The notes beneath the pieces were generated by a model. The model had not been told where the DNA came from, did no database searches, and saw nothing but the letters and a program-made list of their open reading frames with translations. Shown one piece after another: positions 7,751 to 17,971 of a DNA stretch of 22,423 nt. Positions within the stretch are counted from its first letter, which is position 1, and each line of letters starts with the position of its first letter. A program made the translations under genes and the position numbers. This stretch comes from a virus: positions 1 to 22,423 of the IMG/VR virus record IMGVR_UViG_3300001748_000032. One strand, written 5' to 3'.

Positions 7751-8578
7751 ATGGCAGAAAAAGCTGTAGCAGAAGAAAATAATGAGGTTGCACCTCAAGT
7801 AAAGGTTAAGGCTAAACCTGTAAAACAAGAGCCGGTAAAACCTCAATGGGAAATTAAAGATAGAACCTATTTATTAAGAGGTAAAAAAACTCCGCTTACT
7901 TACACATTAAACTCTAAGCATACTAGAAAATACGCTATGCTTTGGTTTGATCCAGAAACAGGTAAGCAAGAGGAACTTAGGTATGCTACGAATCAAAGCT
8001 CACCTTTGGTTAGCGAACAAAAAGGCGAAGTAACACTTGGTCATATTATTTTTAGAGAAGGCGTACTTACAGTTCCAAAAGAAAAACAGAATCTACAAAA
8101 ATTACTATCTTTGTATCACCCTGCAAGAAACAGGGTATATCAAGAATTTAATCCAGTTGAAGTAGCTAAAGATGATTTAGATATTATTGATTTGCAAATC
8201 GACGCAATGAACGCTGCTAGAGACATGGATGTAGATTTTGCTGAAGCAATTATGCGTGTAGAGGTTGGTTCTAACGTTGCTAAGATGAGTTCTAAAGAGA
8301 TTAAACGAGATTTACTTATCTTTGCTAGAACGAATCCACAGCTGTTCTTAGAGCTAGCTAATGACGAAAACGTTCAACTGCGTAACTTTGCTATTAACGC
8401 TTCTGATGTTGGTATTATTAAACTATCACCAGATCAAAGACACTTTATGTGGGGATCAAACGGGAGAAAACTTATGGAAGTTCCTTTTGATGAAAACCCG
8501 TACTCGGCTTTTGCGGCTTTCTTAAAAACAGATGAAGGCGTACAAGTTTACAAATCAATAGAGAAAAAACTTCTCTAG
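7751..8578 (+). CDS. Unrecognised head-associated structural protein
   Basis: A 275-residue protein I do not recognise. The first 35 residues are an Ala/Lys/Val/Pro/Glu low-complexity tail, probably disordered. A beta-like region follows (RTYLLRGKKTPLTYTLNSKH, about 43-62), then a predicted helical part from about residue 130 to the end, including LDIIDLQIDAMNAARDMDVD. It sits between the coat gene and the first ring-type gene, after its own leader and before a hairpin, so it may form its own transcription unit. A capsid-decoration, vertex or head-completion role is inferred from place only. A coding region without frameshift and plausible composition make it a real gene. No enzymatic motif was seen. 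Confidence 0.7.
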   Translation: MAEKAVAEENNEVAPQVKVKAKPVKQEPVKPQWEIKDRTYLLRGKKTPLTYTLNSKHTRKYAMLWFDPETGKQEELRYATNQSSPLVSEQKGEVTLGHIIFREGVLTVPKEKQNLQKLLSLYHPARNRVYQEFNPVEVAKDDLDIIDLQIDAMNAARDMDVDFAEAIMRVEVGSNVAKMSSKEIKRDLLIFARTNPQLFLELANDENVQLRNFAINASDVGIIKLSPDQRHFMWGSNGRKLMEVPFDENPYSAFAAFLKTDEGVQVYKSIEKKLL

Positions 8579-8645: not shown

Positions 8646-9353
8646 ATGGCTATAAACGTAAACCAGGTATATAAATCTGTACTTGTGGTATTGCAACAAG
8701 AAAAAAGAGGTGTATTAACACCCACAGAGTTTAACAAGATTGCAACTCAATCACAGCAAGAAATATTTACAGAGTATTTTGATGAGCTAAATCAACTACT
8801 TAGACAACCACAAACTAGCTTGGCTTATGCTGATAGATTCGCCTTGTTAGATGAAAAAATATCTTTATTTAAAAGAAGTGACGCTGTTAACTTTACAGCT
8901 GGAACTACAGATGTAACAGTTCCTTCAAACGTTCAAGAGCTAGGCACTGTTATATATAACAATAGAGAGGTTCAAAGAATACAAGAATACGAAGTTTATA
9001 CTACAAACCAATCACCTCTTACAGCTCCAACAGCTTTCTACCCGGTATATACATACGAGAATGGTATTATAAAACTATACCCAGCTGACACTGCTATTGT
9101 AACAGGTGATGGTATTACTTTAAATTATTTAAAATATCCATCAGATCCAAAATGGGGATTCACTATTGATACTGAACTTGGTAATTATATTTACAGCGAA
9201 CAAGCTTCAACTGATTTTGAATTACATCAGTCTGATCAACCTTTGTTAATAGACAAGATACTAGGATATGCAGGTGTTATGACTAGAGATCAATTAGCTT
9301 TATCTTTAGGCACACAAAAAGAACAACAAATAGACGTCGACGGACAAAAATAA
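8646..9353 (+). CDS. Putative head-tail ring/adaptor protein, A copy
   Basis: A 235-residue protein whose first 76 residues match the 256-aa gene at 9949 at roughly 44 positions by eye (shared MAINV, TP-EFNK-ATQ, LR-PQ, KIS-FK). Similarity continues to the end, for example YPVYTYENGIIKLYP against FPVYLYESKKINVLP. The helical N-terminal half and the location after the head genes and before the nozzle genes suggest a ring or adaptor extending the portal, as in tails of short-tailed phages. The function is inferred, the paralogy is seen. The gene is followed by in-frame tandem TAA stops and by its partner seven bases on. The leader before the ATG (8621-8645) contains no G. Confidence 0.65.
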   Translation: MAINVNQVYKSVLVVLQQEKRGVLTPTEFNKIATQSQQEIFTEYFDELNQLLRQPQTSLAYADRFALLDEKISLFKRSDAVNFTAGTTDVTVPSNVQELGTVIYNNREVQRIQEYEVYTTNQSPLTAPTAFYPVYTYENGIIKLYPADTAIVTGDGITLNYLKYPSDPKWGFTIDTELGNYIYSEQASTDFELHQSDQPLLIDKILGYAGVMTRDQLALSLGTQKEQQIDVDGQK

Positions 9354-9359
9354 TAAATC

Positions 9360-9938
9360 ATGGCTACAACTTTATCAAACGCTTTTATATCACTAAACGA
9401 TATTATAAACAACTTTTTAATATCTTATACGGGTCCTGGTAAATTAATACCAGATGCAGTTAGAACAGAGGTTATATTCCACGCGCGTAGGTGCTTACAG
9501 GAATTTGCTTACGAAACTATTAAAAGTCAATTTACTGAAGGTCCTACCTCTGTTACAGCTGGAAATGCTATTAGTTTACCAACTGATTTTGTGGCTGTTA
9601 TATCAGCTGAAAATACTGGTTCTTCAGAAAATCCATTGACTGAAGTTTCTACGCCACCGCCTTCCGCTGGAGAATATTACATAGACTATGTAGCAAGAAC
9701 AATTACATACGGTGATACTGGAAACGCTACGTTAAAGTATCTATCGAATGCACTTACAACAGATGAATCAGCAGCTATACCTAAGCTAGCTGAAGAGGCT
9801 TTATACTCTTGCATGGTATATGCTATACTAGCTAACAGAGACAACAGTAGACCTGACGTGCTACAAAGATTACTCATAGAAAAAACAGATAAGTTAGAAA
9901 GAGCTAAATCAAGATTAGTATTTACAAACTTTGACTAA
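9360..9938 (+). CDS. Putative head-tail ring/tail-tube-like protein, B copy
   Basis: A 192-residue protein paired with the A gene six bases upstream. The segment INNFLISYTGPGKLIP (about 16-31) and the later IPKLAEEALYSCMVYAILAN recur in the gene at 10723 as VNNFLVAYVGDGKLIP and VPKLAEEALYAHISHAVLAS. Helical ends flank a short beta-rich middle. This layout resembles the tail-tubular or adaptor class that oligomerises as a ring below the portal, but assignment is from context and the paired copy. The final residues (LERAKSRLVFTNFD) are helical and basic. The start has no Shine-Dalgarno; the gene ends in TAA ten bases before the next ATG. Confidence 0.65.
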   Translation: MATTLSNAFISLNDIINNFLISYTGPGKLIPDAVRTEVIFHARRCLQEFAYETIKSQFTEGPTSVTAGNAISLPTDFVAVISAENTGSSENPLTEVSTPPPSAGEYYIDYVARTITYGDTGNATLKYLSNALTTDESAAIPKLAEEALYSCMVYAILANRDNSRPDVLQRLLIEKTDKLERAKSRLVFTNFD

Positions 9939-9948
9939 ATAAAATAAC

Positions 9949-10719
9949 ATGGCGATTAACGTAGATAACGTATATCAAACTGTGTTGCTTATATTAAACA
10001 AAGAGCAGCGCGGTTTAATGACGCCTGATGAGTTTAATAAAACAGCTACACAAGTTCAATTAGATATATTCGAACAATACTTTGATGATTTAAATCAACA
10101 ATTAAGAGTACCACAAGCTGATTATGATTACACTGATAGGCAGTTAAATATAGATGATAAAATATCTATATTTAAATGTATAGGTAATTGTAGTTATTCA
10201 TCTGGTAGATTTGATCTTCCAGTTTTAGATGACATTACGGGTAAAACCATAGTATATAATGACGCTCCAGTTAATACCAACTCTGGTTTTCAATACGCTT
10301 TCTACAAAGTAGGTACGATAACTTATGATGGTGGCACTTATCCTATTGAATTAGAAAGGCTACAAAGAGATGATTTTTACGAAATACAAAAGTCTGATCT
10401 GACAATACCTAGTGAAAACTTCCCTGTTTATTTATACGAAAGCAAAAAGATAAACGTGTTACCAAATACCATACAGAGCGATGTAAAAGCTTCTTTCATC
10501 AGAAAACCTAGAAATGTTAACTGGTCATATTCACCTGGAGGCTTTGGTCAATATGAATACGATTCAACTAACTCTGTTAATTTTGAAATACAAAGTAGTG
10601 AACAAGTAAATGTTATTCTTAGAATACTTCAATACTCTGGTATTATAATTAGAGATCCACAAATAGTTCAAGCGGCTGCGTCTGAAATACAACAAAACGA
10701 AGTAAATAAAAAAAGCTAG
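9949..10719 (+). CDS. Putative head-tail ring/adaptor protein, A' copy
   Basis: A 256-residue paralog of the gene at 8646. It differs mainly by an enlarged middle, about residues 77-135 (Gly/Tyr/Thr-rich), before similarity resumes at the IPSENFPVYLYESKKINVLP segment. The C-terminal half also aligns (NWSY, then QYEYDSTNSVNFEIQSSEQV). Its TAG stop is followed by a single codon (CAT) and then, in the same frame, the ATG of the next gene. If the copies form successive rings, the larger middle could contact a different neighbour; that is inference. The start is placed at the ATG after AAATAAAATAAC, matching the MAINV opening of its paralog. Confidence 0.65.
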   Translation: MAINVDNVYQTVLLILNKEQRGLMTPDEFNKTATQVQLDIFEQYFDDLNQQLRVPQADYDYTDRQLNIDDKISIFKCIGNCSYSSGRFDLPVLDDITGKTIVYNDAPVNTNSGFQYAFYKVGTITYDGGTYPIELERLQRDDFYEIQKSDLTIPSENFPVYLYESKKINVLPNTIQSDVKASFIRKPRNVNWSYSPGGFGQYEYDSTNSVNFEIQSSEQVNVILRILQYSGIIIRDPQIVQAAASEIQQNEVNKKS

Positions 10720-10722
10720 CAT

Positions 10723-11934
10723 ATGTCATTATTAAAAGAAAACAATAGGCAATATTACGAAGGTGCTCAAAGCTTTACAGGTGATGGTAGTAAAGTTAGT
10801 TTCACAACTACCTTTAATACTGATTTAGTATTTGGAGCTGCTAGCAATACAAATGTAAATTATGGTTTAAATAATTTTAAACTATACACTAGCTCTTCAG
10901 CCGCACCAGGAAGTTGGAGTGAAGTTGTTTCTGGTTATTCAGTATCTGGAAATGTAATAACATTTGATATTGCACCAACAGCTGACACTTATATCGTTGT
11001 TCAGTTAAAAAAACTAGATGGTGGCAACTACGGTAGCACAGTTCAAGATAAAGCTTATGGAGACACTGTAGAGAAAAACTACGGCTCATATTCTTATATA
11101 TCTATAGATGACATTGTAAACAACTTCTTAGTAGCTTACGTTGGCGATGGTAAACTTATACCAAGCGCTAAAAGAACTGATATTGTTTTTCATGCTAAAC
11201 GAGGACTTCAAGAGTTTAGCTATGATACTTTAAAAAGTATTAGATCGCAAGAACTAACTGTTCCAACTAGTCTTAGCATACCACTTCCGCAAGACTATGT
11301 AAATTACACAAACATATACTGGGTTGACAAACAAGGTGTTAAGCATATAATAATGCCAGTAAACAATTTAACTGGTAGTCCTTACACTGTACCCGTTCAA
11401 GATGCCAAAGGTGTTCCAACACAAGATAACTTTAACAACGATATTCAAGGTGATTCTATTATAGAAGAAAGATGGAATACTAACGATTTAAAAAATAAAA
11501 ACATTAACGTAGATGATACAGTTCTAGCATCGTTCTATTATAACTATGATTTTCCAAATCTTGGGTATGGCGAACTGTACGGCTTAGAACCTCAGTATGC
11601 TAATATAAATGGTTACTTTCAATTAAATGAAAGAGAGGGTAAGATATCTTTTTCAAATGATCTTGTAGATAAGATTATTTTATTTGAATATATATCTGAT
11701 GGTCTTGCGACTGATGATGATACAAGAGTACCTAAATTAGCTGAAGAAGCCTTGTATGCGCACATATCTCATGCTGTGTTAGCTTCTAGGATAAATCAAA
11801 ATGAATACGTGATACAACGTTTAAAACGTGAACGAAGCGCTAAGCTTAGAAACGCTAAAATACGTTTATCAAACCTCAAGCTAAACGAGCTAGTGCAAGT
11901 TATGCGTGGCAAATCTAAATGGATTAAACACTAA
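10723..11934 (+). CDS. Putative ring protein, B' copy with extra N-terminal domain
   Basis: A 403-residue protein in two parts. Residues from about 124 onward are paralogous to the 192-aa gene at 9360. Residues 1-123 are absent from that copy and form a Gly/Ser/Thr-rich beta-like domain with YYEGAQSFTGDGSKVSFTTT near the start and YIVVQLKKLDGG near its end. A further insertion lies around residues 210-300, and a short basic tail (VMRGKSKWIKH) is added. The gene is last of the duplicated module and directly upstream of the nozzle gene (6-base gap), so the gained domain could bind the nozzle or fibres. This is inference. The beginning at ATG 10723 is supported because the additional domain has no break from the paralogous part. 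Confidence 0.65.
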   Translation: MSLLKENNRQYYEGAQSFTGDGSKVSFTTTFNTDLVFGAASNTNVNYGLNNFKLYTSSSAAPGSWSEVVSGYSVSGNVITFDIAPTADTYIVVQLKKLDGGNYGSTVQDKAYGDTVEKNYGSYSYISIDDIVNNFLVAYVGDGKLIPSAKRTDIVFHAKRGLQEFSYDTLKSIRSQELTVPTSLSIPLPQDYVNYTNIYWVDKQGVKHIIMPVNNLTGSPYTVPVQDAKGVPTQDNFNNDIQGDSIIEERWNTNDLKNKNINVDDTVLASFYYNYDFPNLGYGELYGLEPQYANINGYFQLNEREGKISFSNDLVDKIILFEYISDGLATDDDTRVPKLAEEALYAHISHAVLASRINQNEYVIQRLKRERSAKLRNAKIRLSNLKLNELVQVMRGKSKWIKH

Positions 11935-11940
11935 AATTAA

Positions 11941-14900
11941 ATGGCTGAAGTTAAAAACGCGTTCATCAAATCTAAGATGAACAAAGACTTAGACGCAAGA
12001 TTAATACCTCAAGGTGAATACCGAGATGCTGTTAATGTGCAGGTGAGTAAATCTGAAGGTGATGATGTCGGTGCACTTGAAAATGTTCTCGGCAACTTTA
12101 GCGTAGCTGAGTTTGAACCAACTGTTTCAGATTTAACTTGTATAGGTTTTTTAGTTAATGAATTTAACTCTACAGTTTATTTATTCTTTACTGATTATAC
12201 AGATGATTACGAATCTAACGGTGGTAATCCTACTTACAATCCAGACGCTAAAAATTTTATATATCAATATAATACGTTATCTTCTAATTCAAATAAACTA
12301 GTTGAAGGTGCTTTTTTAAACTTTTCAAAAAATAGACCTATAATAGGCATTAATATCTTAGAAGAGTTTTTGTTTTTTACTGATAACAGAAATCAACCTA
12401 GAAAAATAAACGTAACTAGAGCGCTTGATAACAACCAGTATTATCAAACAGAAGATCAAATATCTGTAGCAAAATACAATCCTTACCAGCCTATATATCT
12501 TTGGAAAACAAGCGAACTTGAAGCAGCTGAAACCGCTATACCTACCGTTGTTGGTAATGTTACGGATTCTTTTGTAATTGAAATTGAATCAGCGATTGAT
12601 TGGGATATAAGCGTTGGTCAAGGAGTCGTAGGTAAAGGTGGATCTGTTATAAAACCTTATACATACGTAGAGGCTGTAAATGGCACTACAATAACACTTA
12701 GTAAAGCGCAAACTTTATCTGACGGAGACTCTATAGCTTTTGTAGATTTAGAAACATCTATGTATGATGTTGCTAATAAGTTTTTGCCGAATGGCACTAC
12801 AAATCCTTATTACAGAGAAGACGAGCAAGGAGAGTCTTTGTTCGCAGGTGATCCTAAGTTTTTAGAAGATAAATTTGTAAGATTTTCATATAGGTTTAAG
12901 TTCGACGATGGTGAATATTCTCTACTTGCTCCTTTTACGCAACCATGTTTTATACCAAAGCAAGACGGTTATTTTACCGAAGGAGACGAGCAGCAAGCGG
13001 TAGCTTCTACAATATTAAGCTTCATGGAAAATAAAGTAAATCAAATAGATTTACAAATACCATTACCTACAGCTGGAAATTTACTTTCAAGTGAATTAAA
13101 AATAGCTGAATTAGAAATTGTATATAAAGAGTCAGACGCTTTAGCTTTACAGTCTATAGATATTATACAAGTTGCTAGTATAAGCTCTTCAGCCGGAGAA
13201 AATAATGTTTTTGAGTACACATACAACTCTACAAAACCATTTAAAACTTTACCAGCTAACGAAATAACAAGAGTTTACGATAAAATTCCAGTAAAAGCAT
13301 TTGGTCAAGAAATAATATCAAACAGAGTTGTTTATAGTAACTTTCAAGACAAGCATACGCCTCCTGCTGCTTTAACATATCAAGTAGCCGCTAGTGAAAA
13401 ATATGATTTTAATACAGGTGAATCTATTTTTAGTTCTAAAACTACTATAGAATATCCAAACCACAGTGTAAAAGAAAATAGAAACTACCAAGTTGGTGTT
13501 GTTCTATCTGATAGATACGGTAGACAGTCAACTGTTATATTATCTAACGATGATTCAGATAAAAACAATGAGTTTGGTGCTGACACTGTGTATATTCCTT
13601 ACGATGATTCTGATGTTTATAACCCTACTACTTTTTTAGGAAACTCTATAAAAGTACTATTTAACAGTTTTATAACAAGTGATAAAAATGAAGTGTTTGG
13701 AAGACCTGGTCTTTACAATGGCGATGCTACTAGTAGCGCTTATAACCCGCTTGGTTGGTATAGTTATAAAATAGTAATAAAACAAATAGAACAAGAATAC
13801 TATAATGTGTACGCTGCTGGCGCCATGAAAGGAAATCCAATACAACCAAATTCAGAAACCAATACATCGTTTATAACAGTTATAAATGATAATATAAATA
13901 AAATACCTAGGGACTTATCAGAAGTAGGTCCTCAAGATAAAACATTTAGAAGTAGCGTAAGACTTTTTGGAAGAGTAGTAAACACAATTAGAAGTTTTAA
14001 TAATCAAGGTAACAAACAATACCAACCAGAACAAACAGGTTTATCTTTTACAACAAATAATATAGAAGATTTATATGATCTTTTTGATATTGCTGGTTAT
14101 AATGAAACGGAAAACAAGCCCATTACTGATCCTACAAACAAATTTCATGCTTTTTACAAAGCTGAATCTAATCCTTTTATAGCAGAGTTTGTAACGTCTC
14201 AACTTGACGCCGATAAGTTTGGTATACGAAATACAGTTTCATCACAGGCCAATGAATATCCTAAAAACGAAAACTTAATTATTCTTGAAACAAACCCAAC
14301 TGTATCTAACATAGATATATTCTTTGAATCTAGTACCGCAGGTTTAATATCAGAATTAAACATAGCTATTGACACAGATGGTGCGTTTGCCACAGAAGGT
14401 TTTCAATATACTCACGATGAATCATACGATATCGGAGCCGATGTTACATTGGATTTTCAATTTAAAGATGTTTTAAATGAAATAGTAGTACCTACTGCAA
14501 CTCCAGTTTTATCTGTATTAGATAACACAGGTGTTGACAGAAGTAGTGATTTTTCAATATTTGTAGTAGATGATGTTGCTGGGATATACAAAATAAAAAC
14601 CGCGAGTTATTTCTACTACGGTCAAAACGCTATTAACCTTGAATCGTATACTTTCACTTTTACAGTTACAGTAGGTGAAGCTATCACAGACGTAACTGAG
14701 TCCGGTGCTCTTACAAATGTACCTCCTATCATATTAAATGATAACACTCCTGATATAAATGTAGATCAAGGAGCTAGGGAGATACCACTGCCATTTACCC
14801 CAGATTCAGCCGGTGGTATAGATGCTGTTAATGGATCTAATATCGCTGGAGGTAGATCAAAAGAAGATTTAATATATCAAATAAGCTCACAGACTGGTAA

Positions 14901-16128
14901 TGGTGTTTTTGAATTACAAGGTTTATCAGTTGTAAATACAGATCCTAACGCTATAGGTAGAGGAAGTTTTGAATTATTAGTTGCTGATGTTAGTAGGGGA
15001 GAATATAAAACATTTAATGTTAACTTCGGTCAACCACCTGTTACAGCTGCGTTTAACAGCGAATCGCCTTCTTTTATATACGATGCAGATGGTCAAGCTG
15101 ATTTCTACGCAAGTGAGAACAAGGCTTTAACATCTAACACACCTGCTTATTTATCAAGTTATCTTACAGGTTTTCAAGCACCAACTCCTCCTGATACTTT
15201 TTTAGCTGCCCCTGTTTGTCCTACAGGTTCTACTCTCGATGCTAACTTTTATAATATTTTTTATGAAACAGGATTAACACAAGGTACTTTTTTTGTTTAT
15301 ATAAACCCTGAAAATTTTGATCAAACAACAATTAACTTAAATAGGTTTAGCACACTAGTTATATGGTCTGTTCAATATAGAGCAAACAGTTCTTCGAATT
15401 GGTCTGATGCAGTTGATATAAACAATGTTATACCGGAAAAATACGGAAAATGGTATTATGATGAAGATTCAGGTGTTATAGGTATGCAAGCTTATGGCCA
15501 AGGTTTTGGAGGAGAGTTAGGAATAAACTCTGAAATTATATCTTCAACACAAGGACAAACACCTTCTTTTAGTGGTAGAGTATTAGCTTTTAATTTAGTT
15601 GGAGAGTATAGAGTAATATTCGGAAACTTAGCAAGCAACTATACAGCTCCAGACGCGCCTGGAAATACAGCTCCTGCTTACCGTATTGGAGGTTCAGCAG
15701 ATTGTAGTCAAAATCAAAACCCAAATATTAGTGCTCAATATTGGACTCAAGATTTTTATAAACCTGGAACTAACTTTGCACCAGATGCAGATCCTAACAC
15801 TCCAAATGTTTATAGATATCAAATAGCTACTAATAGTAGTAGTAGTACCGATTTCGTCTCTGACGGCGTTAATTACTACGCGGCTGAACCTTTTGCAAAC
15901 TATATAACTCAATTATACCTAGACGAAGCTTTAACTCAGAAAGCTAGTTTTACTACCGGCGGGGATAGAAGGTATAGAAGAATGGATCGAATTAGTCCAA
16001 GCTCAACAAGGGTATTCAACCCAGAGTTTACAAAAGACGGTTCTTACGTTGCATATTTCAATAGTACAGGTTTAAGAGATACAAGCCCAGACAATATACC
16101 ATTTCCTTCTTTATATTCATTTAATTAA
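11941..16128 (+). CDS. Large tail nozzle/muzzle-like protein
   Basis: At 1395 residues this is the longest complete gene. The N-terminus carries KMNKDLDARLIPQGEYRDAV (about 12-31), followed by GDDVGALENVLGN. I recall this opening from tail proteins of Crassvirales-like and marine phages. Other landmarks are NRVVYSNFQDKHTPPAAL (about 461-478), YPNHSVKENRNYQVGVVLSD (about 505-524) and NPTVSNIDIFFESS (about 785-798). About residues 930-1035 look cadherin-like or Ig-like (PPIILNDNTP, then GSFELLVADVSRGEY), as in modular tail domains. The beta-rich, Asn/Thr/Tyr-heavy composition and place after the ring genes suggest the tail tip through which DNA exits. No signal peptide or transmembrane segment is expected or seen. 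It is separated from the next gene by one base. Confidence 0.6.
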   Translation: MAEVKNAFIKSKMNKDLDARLIPQGEYRDAVNVQVSKSEGDDVGALENVLGNFSVAEFEPTVSDLTCIGFLVNEFNSTVYLFFTDYTDDYESNGGNPTYNPDAKNFIYQYNTLSSNSNKLVEGAFLNFSKNRPIIGINILEEFLFFTDNRNQPRKINVTRALDNNQYYQTEDQISVAKYNPYQPIYLWKTSELEAAETAIPTVVGNVTDSFVIEIESAIDWDISVGQGVVGKGGSVIKPYTYVEAVNGTTITLSKAQTLSDGDSIAFVDLETSMYDVANKFLPNGTTNPYYREDEQGESLFAGDPKFLEDKFVRFSYRFKFDDGEYSLLAPFTQPCFIPKQDGYFTEGDEQQAVASTILSFMENKVNQIDLQIPLPTAGNLLSSELKIAELEIVYKESDALALQSIDIIQVASISSSAGENNVFEYTYNSTKPFKTLPANEITRVYDKIPVKAFGQEIISNRVVYSNFQDKHTPPAALTYQVAASEKYDFNTGESIFSSKTTIEYPNHSVKENRNYQVGVVLSDRYGRQSTVILSNDDSDKNNEFGADTVYIPYDDSDVYNPTTFLGNSIKVLFNSFITSDKNEVFGRPGLYNGDATSSAYNPLGWYSYKIVIKQIEQEYYNVYAAGAMKGNPIQPNSETNTSFITVINDNINKIPRDLSEVGPQDKTFRSSVRLFGRVVNTIRSFNNQGNKQYQPEQTGLSFTTNNIEDLYDLFDIAGYNETENKPITDPTNKFHAFYKAESNPFIAEFVTSQLDADKFGIRNTVSSQANEYPKNENLIILETNPTVSNIDIFFESSTAGLISELNIAIDTDGAFATEGFQYTHDESYDIGADVTLDFQFKDVLNEIVVPTATPVLSVLDNTGVDRSSDFSIFVVDDVAGIYKIKTASYFYYGQNAINLESYTFTFTVTVGEAITDVTESGALTNVPPIILNDNTPDINVDQGAREIPLPFTPDSAGGIDAVNGSNIAGGRSKEDLIYQISSQTGNGVFELQGLSVVNTDPNAIGRGSFELLVADVSRGEYKTFNVNFGQPPVTAAFNSESPSFIYDADGQADFYASENKALTSNTPAYLSSYLTGFQAPTPPDTFLAAPVCPTGSTLDANFYNIFYETGLTQGTFFVYINPENFDQTTINLNRFSTLVIWSVQYRANSSSNWSDAVDINNVIPEKYGKWYYDEDSGVIGMQAYGQGFGGELGINSEIISSTQGQTPSFSGRVLAFNLVGEYRVIFGNLASNYTAPDAPGNTAPAYRIGGSADCSQNQNPNISAQYWTQDFYKPGTNFAPDADPNTPNVYRYQIATNSSSSTDFVSDGVNYYAAEPFANYITQLYLDEALTQKASFTTGGDRRYRRMDRISPSSTRVFNPEFTKDGSYVAYFNSTGLRDTSPDNIPFPSLYSFN

Positions 16129-16129
16129 C

Positions 16130-17554
16130 ATGGGAGCAGTAGTAGAAGTAAAATATTTTAACTCTTTTTTATTAAAGAAGACTATAAGAGATACTTTAGG
16201 TCCACCTCAATGGAACGGTAGTACAGGTGTTCCACCAACTGTTAGCGGTGGCTTCCCTGTATTTTCTCAAGACCAAACAAATGTAGAGGCTAGTTGGCTT
16301 ATAGAAGAGTCTAGAATTAGAGGTGGTTACAATAACACAAACGTTGATTATGGTGTTAGGGCTTATCTAGTAGAAGATAAACCAAATTCTAGCGTTAGAT
16401 TTAATTCTCTTATATACTCTGGTATATTTAACTCTAGAACAGGCGTTAACGATACAAATGTATTTTCAGTTGCTGATGATATTACTAAGTCTGTAGACCC
16501 TGCAAATGGAAGTATACAGAAACTTTACGCTGAAGATACAAACTTAATTGTGTTTCAAGAAAATAAAGTTAGTAGAGCGCTTATAGATAAAGATGCTATA
16601 TACTCAGCTGAAGGAGGAGGTAGTGTAACTTCTAGCAATTTAGTTATTGGGCAAATAGTTCCTTACGCTGGTAACTTTGGTATATCTAAAGATCCAGAAA
16701 GCTTTGCTGTTTATGGTTATAGAAAATACTTTACTGATAGAAACAGAAATGCTGTAATGCGTTTATCACAAGATGGTCTCACTGAAATATCTAACTACGG
16801 TATGATAGATTATTTTAGAGATGAATTTGGTAAACTAAGTAATACAGATAAAATATACGGTGCTTTTGATATATACACGAAGCAATATGTAGTTAGTATT
16901 CAAGGTGAAAATATTGAAGATACATATCAAACATTGGCATTTGACGAAACTGTAAGAGGTTGGACTAGTAGATTTACATACAAACCTGATGAAATATTTA
17001 GTATACAAAATAAATACTACAGTACTAAAGGTAATAAGCTTTGGCAGCATAACTACATGACTGGTTTTAATAATGACAGGTCTATATTCTATGATGTATA
17101 CTATGACTCTAGCGTAAAGTTTATATTTAACCCGAACGTTAGTCTTTCTAAAAACTTTAAAACAGTTAACTACGAAGGATCAACTGGTTGGCAGATAACT
17201 GAGTTTAATGGTCAAAGAGAATTTGATATAGTTGACACTTCTAACTACCCGAGAGAAGCTTTAAATGATTTAGACGTGTCTGTTGTTAGCTATGATGAAG
17301 GTGGTTACGAGTTAAATGGTATACAGTACTACGCTGGATTTTACAAAAAAGAAGGTAAGTATAAAGCAAACCTTGTTAATAGTAGTGGGGCCACATCTAA
17401 AGAAGTTGTATTTGGTCCTAGCGTTTCAGGTGTAAAAGGTTACTATGCAACTGTAACTATAAAAACAGATAGTAGTACACAAGTGGCTGGTAATGGTGGT
17501 AAAACACGTGAGCTATTTGCCGTGTCATCTGAGTATGTAGAATCAGCTTATTAA
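16130..17554 (+). CDS. Tail-tip/nozzle protein, probable propeller-like partner
   Basis: 474 residues, one base after the 1395-aa gene. It is beta-rich with recurrent short Tyr/Phe-Gly motifs. Landmarks are IQKLYAEDTNLIVFQENKV (about 129-147), VPYAGNFGISKDPESFAVYG (about 177-196), FTDRNRNAVMRLSQDGLTEI (about 201-220) and YGMIDYFRDEFG. This pattern of repeated strands reading out YFTD-R and LS-DGL fits a beta-propeller-like fold of the kind present in short-tail nozzle proteins. I recall homologous segments as the C-terminal part of single large nozzle proteins in other phages, so the gene may be the detached C-terminal portion of the same nozzle. It ends in TAA followed by AATTAAATGG, the start context of the next gene. 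Confidence 0.55.
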   Translation: MGAVVEVKYFNSFLLKKTIRDTLGPPQWNGSTGVPPTVSGGFPVFSQDQTNVEASWLIEESRIRGGYNNTNVDYGVRAYLVEDKPNSSVRFNSLIYSGIFNSRTGVNDTNVFSVADDITKSVDPANGSIQKLYAEDTNLIVFQENKVSRALIDKDAIYSAEGGGSVTSSNLVIGQIVPYAGNFGISKDPESFAVYGYRKYFTDRNRNAVMRLSQDGLTEISNYGMIDYFRDEFGKLSNTDKIYGAFDIYTKQYVVSIQGENIEDTYQTLAFDETVRGWTSRFTYKPDEIFSIQNKYYSTKGNKLWQHNYMTGFNNDRSIFYDVYYDSSVKFIFNPNVSLSKNFKTVNYEGSTGWQITEFNGQREFDIVDTSNYPREALNDLDVSVVSYDEGGYELNGIQYYAGFYKKEGKYKANLVNSSGATSKEVVFGPSVSGVKGYYATVTIKTDSSTQVAGNGGKTRELFAVSSEYVESAY

Positions 17555-17560
17555 AATTAA

Positions 17561-17971
17561 ATGGAATTAAATATACGTCGCTTAGAAGAAAGCGATTGGG
17601 AAACATTATGTTCTTGGTGGGAAAAGTGGCCTGAATGGGTTAACCCACCTAAAGACTTTTTACCTGACAATGGTACTGGTGGACTTATGGTTTATAAGGA
17701 TAAAACACCTATTGTTGCAGGGTTTATATATTATACTAACTCTAAAGGAGCTTTATTGGAATGGATAGTATCTAATCCGGATTATAGAGAAGCTGACAGA
17801 AAAGACGCTATAGAGCTTTTTATAAATGCAGCTGAAGAAGTTTGTAAAGCAAACGGAGTTAAGTATATGTTTACAATAGGTAGAACAAAACCTTTGATAG
17901 AAACGCACCGTAAATTAGGTTGGGTTGTTGATGATAGCCCATCTCATGAAATAACTAAAAGAATAAATTAA
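17561..17971 (+). CDS. GNAT-fold acetyltransferase-like protein
   Basis: 136 residues with the size and order of elements of an N-acetyltransferase fold. It has an N-terminal LNIRRLEESDWETLCSWW opening, a central beta pair (IVAGFIYYTN, about 51-60), a motif-A-like region at about 69-90 (IVSNPDYREADRKDAIELF) and a C-terminal PLIETHRKLGWVV (about 111-123). The usual R-x-x-G-x-G/A acetyl-CoA loop is replaced by RxADRKDA, so acetyl-CoA binding is doubtful. It lies in the tail operon between nozzle and internal virion genes, so it may modify a virion or host protein, or be a structural use of the fold. Gaps are 6 and 1 bases. Confidence in the fold is higher than in enzymatic activity. Confidence 0.65.
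   Translation: MELNIRRLEESDWETLCSWWEKWPEWVNPPKDFLPDNGTGGLMVYKDKTPIVAGFIYYTNSKGALLEWIVSNPDYREADRKDAIELFINAAEEVCKANGVKYMFTIGRTKPLIETHRKLGWVVDDSPSHEITKRIN

Follow-up and report, generated by a model that had tools for sequence, protein, structure and literature searches.

The 22,423 nt marine phage record analysed here (22.4 kb; IMGVR_UViG_3300001748_000032, hereafter the window) carries four genes for tail-barrel ring proteins between its capsid and muzzle genes, arranged as two paralogous pairs in the order A-B-A'-B'. We propose that all four products are ring (adaptor) proteins of the tail barrel, and that A'-B' would be the ancestral, universal pair. A single pair duplication within this clade of Bacteroidota phages would have given rise to A-B, after which B lost position-specific parts. 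A-B would now be an optional cassette, lost repeatedly and exchanged by recombination, and its products would add two rings to the barrel and thereby lengthen the tail. By analogy with ΦcrAss001, B' would lie at the portal end with A' facing the muzzle, and the N-terminal domain of B' may have a docking role or belong to a fibre base. We put the probability of this reading, taken as a whole, at about 0.7.

The gene run lies on the + strand and comprises terminase, portal, a probable scaffold gene, MCP, g7, A, B, A', B', a split muzzle gene and others. Gene g7 (7751-8578) is a fixed neighbour upstream of the ring genes in all loci, and its position is that of crAss001 gp33. It is followed by A (8646-9353; 235 aa), B (9360-9938; 192 aa), A' (9949-10719; 256 aa) and B' (10723-11934; 403 aa). 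The muzzle/nozzle homologue adjoins the ring genes. Its first part (11941-16128) matches phrog_14478 positions 1-184 and occupies the slot of crAss001 gp44; its second part (16130-17554) matches PF25729 crAss_MUZ_C above cut-off (E 8e-8) and phrog_14478 positions 927-1200. In the window and in most marine relatives this homologue (11941-17554) occupies two neighbouring ORFs; it appears as a single ORF in phi38:1 (1324 aa), elemo (1470 aa) and locus L226 (2124 aa). Just 3' of the muzzle genes lies a short GNAT acetyltransferase-like ORF (17561-17971; 136 aa), which is kept in many relatives including GenBank phages; the copy in L002 is annotated as an acetyltransferase subunit.

A first-pass annotation had described two adjacent paralogous pairs in the same order, and this description holds. 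A and A' align over their whole length with 33% identity (258 columns, E 3e-41) and score 144 bits, where the best of 100 shuffles reached 28.5. The earlier estimate that the A copies share about 44 of their first 76 residues proved exact (44/76). B and B' match in two blocks, with 53% identity over 76 residues (E 1e-20) and 48% over 62 (E 1e-13), scoring 79 bits against a maximum of 24.3 in 100 shuffles. The shared B segments are real, but the B copies differ more than had been claimed: B lacks an N-terminal domain of ~115 residues, a middle stretch (~194-320, without BLAST match) and an 18-residue C-terminal tail, all present in B'. A and A' both match phrog_14543 (A' with E 7e-28), and B and B' both match phrog_13977 (E 4e-10 and 3e-37). 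The family A profile matched B weakly (E 0.002, probability 14%), so the case for a ring fold common to A and B rests on structure.

AlphaFold2 was run on family alignments from which four rows from GenBank records were left out. The model of A was good (mean pLDDT 85) and that of B' moderate (mean pLDDT 77, with the N-terminal domain mostly at ~90). In a Foldseek search of the PDB, the top matches of A were the ΦcrAss001 barrel chains 7qoj_D/F/E (E 1e-7 to 1e-6), followed by Pa223, SU10 and GP4. Sequence look-up identified 7qoj_D as ring protein 3 (gp35) and 7qoj_E as ring protein 4/5 (gp34), giving A an R3/R4-like predicted fold. The best matches of B' (E 1e-5) were 7qog_B, which is ring protein 1 (gp43), and 7qoi_FS; the latter we take to be R1 as well, judging from its chain length and the proteins in that entry. 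Matches to the crAss rings had TM scores of 0.3-0.55 and rmsd of 6-15, and SU10 chains were among the fold matches of both A and B'.

As modelled, A and B' both have the ring fold. PDB sequence searches with A, B' and family profiles matched no ring protein; fold comparison alone did so. Family A aligned collinearly with crAss gp34 at a non-significant E of 0.045, and the remaining sequence comparisons with crAss ring proteins were null. In Pfam, A reached the cut-off of PF24175 SU10_adaptor (27.3 against 27 bits) and B fell below it (22.1 bits, E 2e-4); A' and B' were not listed. The window holds at least two paralogous ring-protein genes with a ring fold, as judged from the paralogy and the predicted folds of A and B'. 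The head-to-tail ring role suggested at first pass thereby gains direct fold matches for A and B', and extends to A' and B through homology. The family name that had been left unestablished can now be given as SU10_adaptor (PF24175)/crAss ring-protein fold. In Cellulophaga phage phi18:3, the homologues gp112 and gp113 carry a virion protein annotation based on MS/MS.

In the ΦcrAss001 barrel, the ring proteins R1 (gp43), R2 (gp40), R3 (gp35) and R4/R5 (gp34) form a stack that runs from R1 next to the portal to R5 next to the muzzle (Bayfield et al. 2023, PMC10172136). As in the window, several paralogous ring genes lie between capsid and muzzle genes, in the order MCP, one gene, ring genes, muzzle, and the R1 gene adjoins the muzzle gene. 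The best fold matches, R3/R4-5 for A and R1 for B', would by this analogy put B' on the portal side and A-type rings on the muzzle side, and the rings may be dodecamers. Unlike the window, crAss phages have the order R4/5, R3, (others), R2, R1, with no repeated two-gene unit; R3/R4 is a single-gene duplication with 30.6% identity (PMC10172136). Their ring proteins have no significant sequence match to the A and B types, and their ring number varies between groups, whereas here it varies among close relatives and through exchange. Judged by sequence, the window has no crAss-type MCP and is not placed in Crassvirales: its MCP matches phrog_13704, and that of crAss001 matches phrog_11589.

The GenBank relatives belong to Pervagoviridae, Elemovirus and Pachyviridae, which are filed outside Crassvirales. 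Cellulophaga phi38:1 (Pervagoviridae), Flavobacterium elemo (Elemovirus), Maribacter phage Panino and phi18:3 (Pachyviridae) encode homologues at the corresponding position ahead of the muzzle gene, but only a single pair, with a B protein of 269-307 aa that is without the N-terminal domain of B'. A ring fold between portal and nozzle is also found in the SU10 adaptor gp11 (PF24175; PMC9509320) and in T7-type adaptors. SU10 has one adaptor ring protein where the window has four.

We collected 155 distinct loci from three IMG/VR scans and a few GenBank phages. Carriers of the extra pair are over-represented in this sample because A and B served as queries in two of the scans. The arrangement A-B-A'-B' was present in 54 loci (two with a split gene) and a complete single pair up to the muzzle gene in 64. 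No other order of ring genes occurred among the 155, the remaining loci being cut by contig ends, and first-pair A and B were always present or absent together. Of the 80 loci closest in A', 15 carried the extra pair. No second copy of A was found elsewhere in 12 single-pair records of 41-69 kb; two further single-pair records (G013 and G014) have one A' each, matched in two pieces. Each matched GenBank phage record has one place for a ring pair, and none of the cultured phage records searched carries the extra pair. A candidate third ring pair in a 63.6 kb IMG contig (G020; loci L192 and L234) was rejected as part of a second whole head module. This contig combines two distinct head modules, in one of which B' is frameshifted, and is probably a chimeric assembly.

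In the phylogenetic trees, first-pair A and first-pair B each formed a single, fully supported clade. The genes of single-pair relatives grouped among A'/B', which makes the single pair orthologous to A'-B'. When the trees were rooted on the GenBank phages, first-pair A and B nested inside A'/B', and trees with first-pair A/B outside A'/B' were rejected (AU p 0.0124 and 0.0135). This nested position is moderate evidence, owing to the long stems of the first-pair clades. The A and B trees match, in agreement with the first-pass proposal that the pair was duplicated as a unit. The paralogous copies are, however, not equal sisters: A'-B' is universal, and A-B is extra, optional and exchanged.

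Mapped on a tree of portal, MCP and g7, the cassette switches between present and absent ~12 times, and at least 10 times by starred branches. In pairwise identity, A'/B' follow the capsid protein (rho 0.76/0.82) and A/B do so much less (rho 0.50/0.30), while A and B follow each other (rho 0.62). The clearest swap is in locus L119. Its A-B pair is 86-94% identical to that of L116/L117 (A ~91-92%), but outside the cassette the MCP is only 52% identical and A' and B' 33-40% (A' 33-35%). Between L119 and L117, dS was 0.36 for A and 0.27 for B against 1.68 for MCP, and DNA identity goes up at A and falls ~100 bp into A'. The same pattern was seen for L195/L197 (dS 0.16 and 0.19 versus 0.93). In L119, the backbone excluded the cassette grouping (p 5e-30), and rejection of the backbone grouping by the cassette data was borderline (p 0.065). 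Taken together, the nested clades, the ~12 changes in presence and the swaps with DNA identity falling near the edges indicate that the pair was probably duplicated once and then exchanged between phages as a cassette. A and A' resemble each other in DNA sequence at their 5' ends, which may offer a natural recombination site at which the pair could be deleted or inserted.

On a rival account, the A-B pair of a related phage was acquired beside the resident pair and no tandem duplication took place within any one genome. The pair has clearly been exchanged laterally, and the same gene order would result from recombination between relatives. First-pair A and B nest in the clade's own A'/B', in one clade each, which places the source inside the clade. 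Both this route and duplication in place fit the present data, and the function would be the same either way; we regard an acquired pair as unlikely. We consider it less probable still that the A-B copy is decaying or non-structural and does not belong to the virion. The pair is dispensable, lacking or not seen in 65 of the 80 loci closest in A', but median identity is higher for first-pair A/B (0.69/0.66) than for A'/B' (0.48/0.53). Moreover, A and B sit among virion genes and are under purifying selection, with dN/dS of ~0.05-0.24 in most pairs tested; the exception was A of L175/L188, with almost no synonymous change.

A rival of the longer barrel is that A and A' (and B and B') co-assemble in mixed rings, for instance six plus six, which would alter ring symmetry and leave the barrel at its length. 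A and A' are similar in size and of the same fold family, and mixed rings could help the barrel to pass from the 12-fold portal to the 6-fold muzzle (PMC10172136). Lateral A-A' contacts should, however, couple the evolution of A and A', and the nearly identical A proteins of L119 and L116/L117 stand beside A' proteins that are only about a third alike. The three B' segments missing from B would, moreover, make a ring of both uneven. We therefore judge mixed rings improbable, and the heteromeric stack offered as one option at first pass is disfavoured. Since the cassette works beside A' proteins that are only one third identical, it would make its main contacts within itself, and an inserted A-B double ring fits such a self-contained cassette better than mixed rings do. 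That the extra pair is optional, always comes whole and has moved between distantly related phages suggests a plug-in module that would lengthen the tail.

Multi-ring barrels, including those of crAss phages, and variable ring numbers are already known, and a review of Crassvirales ties ring gene number to tail length (PMC10136315). A mobile two-ring cassette would be new among these. Within the literature covered, which is incomplete, we found no report of a two-gene ring unit that has undergone tandem duplication, that close relatives may carry or lack, and that passes laterally between phages. That ring number sets tail length in crAss-like phages has so far been proposed solely from comparisons of distant groups. 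Close relatives that differ by one ring-pair cassette, which some of them have swapped, provide natural near-isogenic pairs for this question. A core part of the head-to-tail connection behaves here as an interchangeable module. More tentatively, at somewhat less than even odds, the two-gene cassette would be a two-ring barrel segment that is gained, lost and traded; tail length would then pass horizontally between phages, perhaps in keeping with how thick the host surface layer is.

The N-terminal domain of B' (~residues 1-115; 10723-11067) has a predicted fold that appears to resemble the N-terminal anchor domains of T7-type fibres and spikes, namely those of Kp7, phiM1, LME-1 and CBA120 TSP4 (chains 7y22_e, 8vbx_S, 9efk_AE and 7rfv, placed on this domain via alignment length and DSSP layout). 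The Foldseek probabilities were 0.8-0.99 but the E values 1.7e-3 to 0.5, and Pfam gave no fibre match for the domain. Searched with the model of this domain, the ORFs of the fetched loci gave no match in any other gene; two matches outside the listed set, in the loci L036 and L192 left out of it, agree with B' in size and location. The SU10 adaptor has a fibre-dock domain, whereas the domain of B' instead appears closer to the fibre's own anchor; it may have a docking role or belong to a fibre base. The literature covered, again incomplete, held no report of a ring protein with a fibre-anchor-like domain.

The C-terminal tail of B' (residues 386-403; 11878-11931) is conserved and ends in KSKWIKH. 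Both it and the N-terminal domain are absent from the first-pair B proteins aligned, and the aligned GenBank single-pair phages are without the N-terminal domain but keep a similar tail. We infer that B is an internal ring of reduced form, no longer engaged in the contacts that B' makes.

Size variants were seen in both families. In seven single-pair loci (L053, L054, L058, L071, L077, L082 and L084) B' has 490-510 aa, the extra ~100 residues lying within the N-terminal domain in the members aligned. In five carriers (L109, L199, L202, L226 and L222) B' has only ~301-304 aa, and the fibre-anchor-like domain appears to be missing in L109 and, by size, in the other four. In L174, L175 and L188, first-pair A is annotated with a longer reading frame (~331-333 aa) that contains ~95 inserted or added residues.
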